This document shows, piece after piece, positions 6,966-30,725 of a DNA stretch of 35,391 bases. Source of the stretch: a virus; the IMG/VR virus record IMGVR_UViG_3300044729_003416, positions 1 through 35,391 of that record, one strand, 5' to 3'. The position numbers were made by a program, and so were the translations under genes. The notes under the pieces were generated by a model. The model saw nothing but the letters and a program-made list of their open reading frames with translations, did no database searches and had not been told where the DNA came from. The stretch's first letter is position 1, and every line of letters begins with the position of its first letter.

Positions 6966-8090
6966 CTAGCCACTCCTTCTAGCCGCCAATTCCCCCACCG
7001 CCTCGCTGAACGTCCGACCACCTACCGGAGCATCCAACGGCGCCGATGGCTGCAGGCTGCGCGTGCGATCGGGGAACAGGTAGCGCTCGCTGGCGGTTGG
7101 TGCGGTCAGGGCACGCTGCAGCAGCCCCCTGGCCCGTTCCTCGCTGATCCCCTCCGCCTTGGCCAGGGCCCTGACCCCTGCCGCCTGCTCCTCCCGCCAG
7201 AAGTCGTTGTCGAGCAGGGTGTCACGAATCGCCGGGTCCGCCTCCAGCACCTCATCAGCCGGCAGCGGGACCGGCATGCAGCGGCATTGCGGGTGGGCGG
7301 GGATGACCACCTGATCAGCCGGGTAGATTCGCCCATGGCGACTGAGGCACCACCTGCAGGTGCGTTCGTCAGTGGCGGCCACCCAGCGGATGAAGCTGAA
7401 GCCCTCGGCCAGGTTGTGATCGATGGCCCCCTTGACATAGGCATTGGCCAGCTCTGACCGGGCGATCACTTCGGCGCGCTGCCGTAGCCCCGTCCGTGAG
7501 GCCTTGCCCGAGGGGTCGGTTGTGCCCTCTAGCGCCCCAATGATCTGCCGTTCAAGCCGGCGAGGCCCCCAGCCACGGGCGACCCCTTCGCTGACGATCT
7601 GGGCGATTTGATCACGGAACCGTGCGGATTCACCCGACATGAAGGCGGTAGCGGTCTGTGCAGCGGCGCGGATCGCCAGCGGATTGGCCCCGGCGAAGGT
7701 GGCGCTGGCGCTGGTGACGATCGACTGCAGCGCGGCCGCAGCTTCACCGCCAACGGCTAGGGCCTCGACCAGATCGGTGGTGAACTGGCGCTGCCAGGCG
7801 GCGATCTCTTCTGGCGGCAGGAACTGCTGAGCGTCCTTGAGAATGGCCCGGTACTTGGTGGCTGCTTCGGCGGAGCTGTAGGCACCAGGGGCCCTGATGG
7901 GGTTGCCTTCGGGGTCAAGATCGGAGGGGCCTACGGCATTGAGGTAGGCGGCATAGTGCCGCTTCAGGTCACCCAGGACGCGATCCAGTGCGGTGCGCAG
8001 CATGGCGGTGGTGTTGGCCAGTGTGCGGGCTTCTAACTGGTCAAGGATGGCGGCGTAGTCGTCAACGACTCCGACGATGCGGGTGGTCAT
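6966..8090 (-). CDS. MuF-type minor head protein
   Basis: 374 aa. The C-terminal half carries the phage Mu gpF-like (PF04233) signature: RSELANAYVKGAIDHN, then WVAATDERTCRWCLSRHGRIY, then IPAHPQCRCMPVPL, with two CxxC-type pairs and a His. The N-terminal 200 residues are helical. In the family this is a minor head or head-morphogenesis protein acting near the portal during procapsid assembly. It lies downstream of the portal on the same strand, separated by the small-gene and basic-protein region, which is an unusual distance. The start is ATG at 8090. Confidence 0.9.
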   Translation of the reverse strand: MTTRIVGVVDDYAAILDQLEARTLANTTAMLRTALDRVLGDLKRHYAAYLNAVGPSDLDPEGNPIRAPGAYSSAEAATKYRAILKDAQQFLPPEEIAAWQRQFTTDLVEALAVGGEAAAALQSIVTSASATFAGANPLAIRAAAQTATAFMSGESARFRDQIAQIVSEGVARGWGPRRLERQIIGALEGTTDPSGKASRTGLRQRAEVIARSELANAYVKGAIDHNLAEGFSFIRWVAATDERTCRWCLSRHGRIYPADQVVIPAHPQCRCMPVPLPADEVLEADPAIRDTLLDNDFWREEQAAGVRALAKAEGISEERARGLLQRALTAPTASERYLFPDRTRSLQPSAPLDAPVGGRTFSEAVGELAARRSG

Positions 8091-29364: not shown

Positions 29365-29604
29365 TTATTCGTCGTTGACAGCAGCTGCTTGGTGATGCAC
29401 GCAACCAAAGTCGGGGCCGGTCCAGAACCCGCCGCCTTCCCCGAATTCATAGATCAACATATCAGCGCCGTAGCTTTGCCCCCAATCTTCGTTCAGCTTC
29501 TCGCTTTGACATAGGCCGCCAGCTTTTTTGGCCTCGCTTGCGCGGCGTTTGGGGTATTTGTCGGAATACGGCATCCAATGTTTGCAGGTTTTGCAAGTTT
29601 CCAT
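29365..29604 (-). CDS. Small zinc-binding protein (METCKTCKHW type)
   Basis: 79 aa. C-K-T-C-K-H-W at the start, then a Gly-Gly-Leu-Cys knuckle, and GFWTGPDFGCVHH at the end supply four Cys and two His, enough for one or two zinc ions. The layout is shared by small proteins in many phages, with unknown function. The ATG at 29604 has AAAGGAATT upstream. Confidence 0.75.
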   Translation of the reverse strand: METCKTCKHWMPYSDKYPKRRASEAKKAGGLCQSEKLNEDWGQSYGADMLIYEFGEGGGFWTGPDFGCVHHQAAAVNDE

Positions 29605-29615
29605 TGTTAATTCCT

Positions 29616-30011
29616 TTAGGGTGTGTGAGTTGAGCCGCGACCCCGCCTAGTCCGTGGCAACAATTGCTCCTTTCGCAGCGCCAGCCCTCGCAAATGCAAG
29701 GCCAGCTGCACTTCGCCTAGTGAACCGGTGCCGAAGTTGCGAATGTCCAGCAGATCGAAGCTGCTGTAAGTGAGCAGCGTGGCCAGGGTGTGAACTCCAA
29801 CGCGCTTCAGCGCGTTGTTAGCCCGCGTCGATAGCTTCAGATCCTCGATTGGCACCGGGGCAGGCTGCGGCTGTATCGCAGCCTTCACCCGCGCCAGTTC
29901 GGCCTCAATGCGCTGCAACTGGCGGGCGGATTCGCTGTCCAGTGGCTGGTCGTCGGGGCTGGTGGGCGGTTGATCGCGGATTGCGATGCCGCAGTGAGGG
30001 CAGGTGAGCAT
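29616..30011 (-). CDS. Zinc ribbon fused to an RNA polymerase alpha-CTD-like domain
   Basis: 131 aa. Residues 1-10 begin a CPHC knuckle, residues ~25-50 are a helical linker, and residues ~54-111 match the RpoA C-terminal domain: PIEDLKLSTRANNALKRVGV, then LLTYSSFDLLDIRNFGTGSL, then GEVQLALHLRGLAL. Compared with E. coli alpha, R63 and N66 correspond to DNA-binding R265 and N268, and S97 and E100 to S299 and E302. C269 is Ala, and K298 is Gly. It may bind upstream promoter DNA or contact regulators without being part of a full alpha subunit. Tail basic. Confidence 0.8.
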   Translation of the reverse strand: MLTCPHCGIAIRDQPPTSPDDQPLDSESARQLQRIEAELARVKAAIQPQPAPVPIEDLKLSTRANNALKRVGVHTLATLLTYSSFDLLDIRNFGTGSLGEVQLALHLRGLALRKEQLLPRTRRGRGSTHTP

Positions 30012-30039: not shown

Positions 30040-30630
30040 TCAACCTAGGCGCCAGGATCGGTATTCCAGCAGGCTTGCCCCCTTCACCACGGTTCCGGCC
30101 TTAAGAGCCGTCTTCAGTGCTGTTTTGTCCACTGAAATGGTGGTCTTGCTGTTCTGGTACTCCACGGGCATGTCCTCGGGCTCCATGTCGTCGTCAATTT
30201 CAACCTTTGTGACCTTGGTGCTCTTGAGTTGGTGCGTGGGCAGATCAAACTTGGTTGCAGCAGGCTCCAAAAACAGCAGCCGATCAACCAGCTTCTCGGT
30301 CATGGCGTCAGCCTTGCGGTCGTCAGCCTTGGCAAGCTCCGTCAGTCGAGCAGCATGGGCGCGGCGGGTGGCAGCCTGATCGGCTAGGCGGTTAATCACC
30401 CAGCACCATGAATCAGCCTTGGCCAGCAGAGCATCCTTGGCGCCTTCGCCAGCGGCTATCAGCGCCTCCAACTCGGCTTCAGCAGCGGCAACCACCTCGG
30501 GGTCATCGCTGACCAGCCCTTCGGCGGCTTCAGTGATGGCGACTTCCAGGTGGTAAGCGTCGCAGGTCAGTGCGTACAGGTTGCTGGGCTTGTCGGTGGC
30601 GGTAGCAGGCTTGGCCTTGGCGGTGGTCAT
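30040..30630 (-). CDS. Gp157-like phage protein
   Basis: 196 aa. NLYALTCDAYHLEVAITEAA opening, a long coiled-coil-like middle (residues ~60-125), T-K-F-D-L-P, then VEIDDDMEPEDMPVEYQ and DKTALKTALKAGTVVKGASL. This is the layout of the siphovirus Gp157 family (PF05565). Family members are linked to phage resistance when plasmid-borne in Streptococcus; the molecular role is unknown. It lies near the recombination genes, as in other phages. Confidence 0.75.
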   Translation of the reverse strand: MTTAKAKPATATDKPSNLYALTCDAYHLEVAITEAAEGLVSDDPEVVAAAEAELEALIAAGEGAKDALLAKADSWCWVINRLADQAATRRAHAARLTELAKADDRKADAMTEKLVDRLLFLEPAATKFDLPTHQLKSTKVTKVEIDDDMEPEDMPVEYQNSKTTISVDKTALKTALKAGTVVKGASLLEYRSWRLG

Positions 30631-30725
30631 CGGTGGTGATTTTTGGTTTCCCCCGGTACTATACCCTTTAGAAACCGCAACGGCTTACAACACGTTGCGA
30701 TTACCACGAACCGACACCACCAACC
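30631..30725. promoter_or_regulatory. Divergent control region between Gp157 gene and rightward DNA-binding gene
   Basis: Leftward -10 candidate TATAGT (30663-30658) followed by ACCGGGGGAAACC; upstream CCGTTGCGG is a near-dyad similar to the CCGTAACGG element. On the plus strand the same DNA leads into the ATG at 30726 with a CACCACCAACC leader. A repressor-operator switch is possible. Confidence 0.4.

Follow-up and report, generated by a model that had tools for sequence, protein, structure and literature searches.

The window, by which we mean the whole stretch of DNA analyzed here, is the IMG/VR virus record IMGVR_UViG_3300044729_003416, comprising 35,391 bases with a GC content of 59%. 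Its genes include those of a terminase, a portal, a minor head protein, an endolysin, a thymidylate kinase, and a dCTP deaminase, as well as those of Rad52, SSB, RusA, a helicase, and a methyltransferase. The nature of the record, together with the terminase, portal, and minor head protein, identifies the window as phage DNA. The terminase has its nearest counterparts in phages of Synechococcus and Prochlorococcus (56% for KBS-S-2A), and the sigma factor matches, among phage records, only cyanophages (nine of nine records), both of which point to a picocyanobacterium as the most likely host. A tRNA-Pyl (CTA) reported by ARAGORN at 7498–7570 on the plus strand, antisense within the minor head protein gene (6966–8090, minus strand), is probably a false positive.

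The features of interest, centered on an open reading frame for a protein of 131 residues, are collected in Table 1. This protein and its eight close relatives are referred to below as form 1, and the product of a second gene present next to it in most of these relatives as form 2; positions in the C-terminal domain of the α subunit of RNA polymerase (α-CTD) follow the numbering of Escherichia coli α.

Table 1. Positions of the features discussed in the text, in the coordinates of the window.
Feature	Position	Strand	Basis or status
ORF of 131 residues, form 1: half zinc knuckle, coiled-coil helix, linker, α-CTD	29616..30011	-	profile search, alignment, model, dN/dS
α-CTD, residues 53–106, with R63, N66, S97, E100	29694..29855	-	profile, fold, alignment
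CPHC, residues 4–7, sole CxxC knuckle, invariant in 9 form 1 proteins	29991..30002	-	
Helix with heptad residues, residues 26–46, probable dimerizing coiled coil	29874..29936	-	alignment, model
Site of the second gene of 7/8 close relatives, absent in the window	29605..29654	-	
Gp157/Mu Gam-like gene, directly upstream of the α-CTD gene	30040..30630	-	
Conserved element before the operon, GTAAGCCGTTGCGG-N8-GGGTAT	30661..30688	-	candidate promoter or operator
Group 3 (SigF-like) sigma factor of the phage, candidate partner	16089..17180	-	PHROG, NCBIfam

Structure of the C-Terminal Domain

The C-terminal part of the protein, residues 53–106, scores 56.5 bits (E = 2.3e-15) with the Pfam profile PF03118 (RNA_pol_A_CTD), whose cut-off is 23.8, and a PDB listing at E ≤ 1 contains 55 sequences, 54 of them RNA polymerase α chains. 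Over the 54 positions of the core, its identity to the CTDs of three cyanobacterial RpoA proteins is 56%, 56%, and 48%, and that to the CTD of M. tuberculosis RpoA is 54%. In the AlphaFold model, the block-mean pLDDT is 90–95 across residues 51–110; Foldseek assigns the model to the α-CTD fold at E 1.7e-6, and in a fold comparison RpoA CTDs come first, with a Z score of 13.4 and 1.2 Å over 64 residues. The ORF thus holds a genuine RpoA C-terminal domain, and the unrelated helix-hairpin-helix that the preliminary description had allowed for is not borne out. Since PF01000 (RNA_pol_A_bac), which is positive in 13 of 14 control genomes, has no match in the window, the α N-terminal domain is missing, and the protein is, as had been proposed from the sequence, a stand-alone α-CTD carried by a phage and unable to assemble as an α subunit.

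The phmmer alignment of residues 53–113 with residues 255–315 of E. coli α places R63, N66, S97, and E100 at the positions of R265, N268, S299, and E302, respectively, with A67 replacing C269 and G96 replacing K298, and so confirms all residue assignments made earlier. The surfaces that might face protein partners are different. Position 261 is Lys in form 1 and Asn in two cyanobacterial RpoA CTDs, and positions 285–288, an activator-contact face of E. coli α, read S-S/N-F-D in form 1 versus S-Y/Q-E-D/E in two cyanobacterial RpoA CTDs, with Phe at position 287 of form 1 in place of the Glu of cyanobacterial α.

A free α-CTD might act simply as a decoy, occupying UP-type sites or host activators and shutting off host transcription while aiding no phage promoter. 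In favor of this, the protein has no α N-terminal domain, so that it cannot deliver polymerase on its own, and it keeps the DNA-contacting R265; in addition, other phages target α, an example being Rac, tied to α cleavage in Pseudomonas (PMC7552054). Nevertheless, we regard this explanation as unlikely, since a 285–288 surface unlike that of host α would be odd in a decoy of host activators, and the zinc ribbon of the relatives described below, with a DNA address of its own, fits a regulator better.

The N-Terminal Region

A zinc ribbon requires two Cys knuckles, and C4 and C7 are the only Cys residues of the protein, which by itself is therefore not a zinc ribbon. No Pfam match to a zinc ribbon is present in it, nor does PF22811 match anywhere across the whole window, and a complete ribbon is ruled out. 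The fusion to a zinc ribbon claimed in the preliminary description consequently fails for this protein and stands for its relatives, in which PF22811 is matched.

Residues 26–45 are predicted by AlphaFold, with moderate confidence in this region, to form a helix, in which L32, I35, L39, V42, and, at its end, I46 follow an a/d spacing. The first four of these residues are invariant, and I46 is nearly so, in 12 aligned proteins that represent two families about 47–50% alike. By likeness to known coiled coils, residues 26–46 are a probable dimer carrier. A Pro-rich linker connects this helix with the α-CTD.

Close Relatives and the Tandem Second Gene

A protein scan of viral contigs yielded the eight close relatives, which are 86–90% identical to the protein of the window. 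In seven of them (L001–L004 and L006–L008, the last three with identical proteins at this locus), the form 1 gene is directly followed by that of form 2, which comprises a zinc ribbon of the NrdR type, the coiled coil also present in form 1, a linker, and an α-CTD. The three form 2 proteins scanned reach 27.5 (L004), 27.2 (L002), and 26.6 bits (L001) with PF22811, for which the cut-off is 27.2, and E values of 1e-15 to 2e-14 with PF03118; the form 2 model consists of three strands, a helix, and the α-CTD. Only form 1 is found in L005 and in the window, where both flanks of the missing gene are kept and the C terminus of form 1 differs. The α-CTD gene of the window is followed by an ORF of 79 residues (29365–29604, minus strand) that starts with METCKTCKHW, has a CxxC of its own, is 100% identical in L002 and L003, and matches no family over its cut-off.

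The two forms show complementary losses, with R265 kept and the ribbon absent in all nine form 1 proteins, and the ribbon kept and Tyr found at position 265 in all seven form 2 proteins. Position 268 is Asn in five form 1 proteins, including that of the window, and Gly in the other four, and K298 is lost from all of them. The two proteins might be a ribbon-plus-α-CTD protein split into two tandem genes and paired by the shared coiled coil, with the ribbon reading a phage operator, the α-CTD reading the adjoining minor groove, and the pair recruiting the host polymerase with the phage SigF-like sigma. We give this arrangement little weight; if true, it would amount to reprogramming of promoters by add-on α-CTDs, with the core enzyme unchanged.

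The ORF is under purifying selection, with dN/dS of 0.16–0.30 between the window and its eight close relatives, 0.16–0.39 among form 1 pairs, and 0.16–0.30 in the three form 2 pairs whose members match in length; pairs without any difference and those with dS = 0 are excluded. These values, and a CxxC and an α-CTD core that are invariant in nine of nine form 1 proteins, make it very improbable that the gene is a decaying remnant without function, even though one half of the ribbon is absent and the second gene beside it is missing from the window.

Trees built from 62 and 85 columns have too little power for dating a capture of rpoA. In them, form 2 clusters with L211, one of the ribbon-bearing proteins described in the next section (96/95.9), a single clade of forms 1 and 2 is not rejected (p-AU 0.088), and the same applies to all phage rows of one tree (0.192). 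The trees are compatible with a single capture for both forms or otherwise, and forms 1 and 2 may have arisen by duplication in place.

Complete Ribbon Fusions in Related Phages

The search for the same fusion in related phages, which had been suggested at the outset, was successful. Two proteins, L211 and L209, carry a complete NrdR-type ribbon, matching PF22811 with 43.4 (E 3.2e-11) and 38.4 bits (E 1.2e-9), respectively, against the cut-off of 27.2, and both R265 and N268 are present in their α-CTDs. A further scan added L220 and L222, which have the full ribbon, and L223; R265 is kept in L209, L211, L220, and L222, as well as in L223. No ATP-cone is found among the Pfam matches of L209, L211, and the three form 2 proteins, in which the α-CTD follows the ribbon instead. 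The Ogr/Delta profile PF04606 gives 14.0 bits for L209, against a cut-off of 26.3, and is not listed for L211 or the three form 2 proteins. The phages with ribbon fusions in the same gene slot probably have picocyanobacterial hosts as well.

The α-CTD of L223 (2983–3342) is nearly identical to that of L222, but its ribbon has been cut to the first half, with the CxxC located there and the coiled coil retained; the record contains no second copy. L223 has thus reached the layout of the window protein by a separate loss of the same part of the ribbon. This repeated deletion would also suit an Id-like inhibitor, in which the ribbon-less form pairs through the coiled coil with the ribbon-bearing one and strips it of operator binding, as would the heptad residues common to both forms and the adjoining position of the two genes in seven of eight close relatives. 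The chance of this is slim, since the window, L005, and the 63.8 kb record of L223, in which no ribbon-bearing partner was found, all have the short form without such a partner. In an unrelated phage, L134 consists of a coiled coil and an α-CTD, with no Cys.

At E ≤ 1e-21, a limit chosen to keep plain RpoA from matching, ribbon plus α-CTD is found in none of 388 cyanobacterial genomes, a weak negative obtained without a positive control; none of 229 pattern matches in bacterial genomes encodes a close relative; and in 50,697 phage records no place covers 80% of the window protein, form 2, or L211. In the proteins of many viral contigs (L224–L248), an NrdR-like ribbon is combined with another type of C-terminal part, and an α-CTD is lacking. 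In Synechococcus phage S-CRES2, a short unannotated ORF between gp43 and gp44 (OQ587940.1, 24613–24735; L249, about 2501–2623) encodes an NrdR-like zinc ribbon, also with no α-CTD. Two or three α-CTD matches are present in 15 of 194 cyanobacterial genomes (G016, G017, G035, G044, G050, G056, G058, G064, G105, G125, G155, G182, G192, G195, and G201), and cyanobacteria may thus have extra α-CTD proteins.

Gene Neighborhood and the Phage Sigma Factor

In a search based on Gp157, in which the α-CTD was not used, all seven viral loci found (five records already in the set and two new ones, L209 and L211) have an α-CTD gene of the family described here after that of Gp157, and a neighbor search with a 149-residue gene gave 12 loci, of which five have an α-CTD gene within the fetched stretch and seven do not. 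The association with Gp157, and with Rad52, SSB, RusA, the helicase, and the methyltransferase, might mean that the protein is a general (HhH)2 DNA-binding accessory of phage recombination or replication that has lost its role in transcription. This is quite unlikely, as both the sequence and the fold are specifically those of the RpoA CTD, with HHH_5 weak or absent, and L001, L002, and L005 keep the gene with no Gp157 within the fetched stretch.

The element that precedes the operon reads GTAAGCCGTTGCGG-N8-GGTAT, or nearly so, in the window, L001, L002, L004, L005, L007, and L211, and it is kept in L005 although the first gene of the operon has been swapped there. Its −10-like part is similar to GGGTAT, the consensus of group 3 sigma factors, and it contains a near-palindrome of the AAGCCGTTGCGGCTT type. 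The dyad is perfect in L211, L006, and L008, has one mismatch in the window, and is broken in L007; it cannot be described as a perfect dyad throughout and is considered here as a lead only.

The sigma factor of the window is matched by PHROG (4e-18) and by the NCBIfam SigF model (2e-15), values that lie under the curated cut-off or for which none exists, with no Pfam match over cut-off; the match to region 2 is clear. This divergent SigF-like protein is 74–100% identical in other viral records. It is encoded in eight of the 14 records that carry an α-CTD gene of this group (the window, G001–G008, and G415–G419), namely in the window, in four of the eight close relatives, and in three of the five further records; there is no match in G220, the record of the unrelated phage L134. 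The six records without it are fragments of 5.6–25.9 kb. In other records, sigma and α-CTD lie about 9 to 14 kb apart, and at least five of these six fragments stop short of that distance, with G417 (12.7 kb) as the possible exception. In the reverse search, which covered 20 records with the sigma factor and that of L134, five of the 21 have the α-CTD gene, four of them together with the sigma factor. The 16 sigma records with no α-CTD match are fragments, too, and the largest, G208 (47,974 bases), is no counter-example, as it ends before the α-CTD region. In records that are largely fragments, the pattern is consistent with the two genes being carried together.

Proposed Function

The protein is most likely a transcription factor that is based on an α-CTD and binds DNA as a dimer. 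In the reading that we prefer, with a probability of roughly 40%, a dimer carrier, a DNA-bound pair of α-CTDs, and a new partner together would steer the host polymerase. The short coiled coil and the N-terminal CxxC would dimerize the protein and display two α-CTDs on flexible Pro-rich linkers, like the α dimer, and the pair would use the conserved surface around R265 to grip the minor groove of DNA ahead of promoters. The surfaces at 261 and 287, which are altered, would touch a partner other than those of host α, the simplest being region 4 of the SigF-like sigma that the phage itself encodes, or else a phage activator, with the host polymerase steered toward phage promoters or off host ones. 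In sister phages, the fused NrdR-type ribbon would supply the module with an operator address of its own.

According to PMC11434276, DNA binding depends critically on R265, which together with N268 binds the backbone and the minor groove, and binding of UP elements by the α-CTD is described in PMC4390567. Contact of form 1 with DNA is plausible because R265 is kept and N268 mostly so, and it may be weakened by the loss of K298 and by Gly at position 268 in four of nine proteins, as it may be in form 2 by Tyr at position 265. A partner face that is changed next to a DNA face that is kept would imply that the protein meets a new partner at DNA sites of the customary type. The phage sigma would be the obvious choice, with a contact surface that is putative, since profile searches did not identify region 4 of this protein. 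As for the ribbon, PMC12051234 assigns one ribbon to each half of the NrdR palindrome and describes the smallest NrdR unit as a dimer formed through the ribbons.

Other observations also speak against this reading. The gene sits in a recombination cluster (Rad52, SSB, RusA, and Gp157) and not beside the sigma factor, which is about 12 kb away, and no target site was found, the NrdR-like box pattern having no match in the window versus 1.23 expected.

In bacteria, the α-CTD is the main point of contact among activators, upstream DNA, and polymerase. Its joining to a zinc-binding module in the relatives suggests a route to redirecting the host transcription machinery. A phage α-CTD would show directly what this domain does apart from the enzyme, and these proteins would offer small soluble tools for testing how cyanobacterial viruses seize transcription.

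Comparison with Known Systems

A stand-alone α-CTD is not new among phages. Domains of this kind, with no α N-terminal domain, are found in Bacillus phage vB_BmeM-Goe8 gp005, Mycobacterium phage Zenteno07 gp68, and Microbacterium phage Atraxi gp24 (PF03118 at E 4e-22, 1e-10, and 5e-11, respectively), as well as, by tblastn and inspection by eye only, in Ruegeria phage vB_RpoS-V16_23. They differ from the proteins described here in their partner regions, and the first three have no zinc ribbon match; product names are the only functional annotation in the four records. Zenteno07 gp68 (L121, 2162–2662), a "hypothetical protein", has a C-terminal α-CTD and possibly a winged-helix N-terminal part, and the V16_23 protein (L250, 1926–2792), annotated as an HTH-domain protein and in the RefSeq copy as a pyrophosphatase, has an α-CTD-like domain at its N terminus. 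Several look-alikes were set aside: MT835508 looks like a complete bacterial RpoA, and matches in Enterococcus, Listeria, Staphylococcus, and other fecal "phages" may likewise be so; the one Streptomyces plasmid match examined lies within a gene for 337 residues annotated as the α subunit; and those to phage N4 RNAP1 (E 0.6–0.9) were taken as noise. In the open-licence PMC literature, we found no NrdR-ribbon/α-CTD fusion, no tandem complementary losses, and no repeated loss of half a ribbon.

The protein of the window shares with the RpoA CTD the profile, the fold, and most of the DNA-contacting residues of the 265 determinant, and differs from it in the missing α N-terminal domain, the replacement of K298 and C269, and the 261 and 287 surfaces, which are unlike those of cyanobacterial α. 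The ribbons of L209, L211, and the form 2 proteins are those of NrdR, but in the phage proteins a coiled coil and/or a linker and the α-CTD follow in the absence of an ATP-cone match, and the protein of the window has kept only the first knuckle. Ogr/Delta proteins of P2/P4 phages are small zinc-binding activators that work through α and are not known to have an α-CTD of their own. The TFIIE-like ribbon of jumbo phages mentioned in PMC7824862 is distinct from the ribbon/α-CTD protein. The cyanophage transcription factor pMarR, which contacts host RpoA in Prochlorococcus MED4 (PMC9692554), is a MarR-type binder of α and not itself an α domain. A movable α-CTD, joined to a ribbon in relatives and accompanied in the phage by a sigma factor, would be nature's counterpart of the fusions to polymerase domains that have been engineered experimentally.
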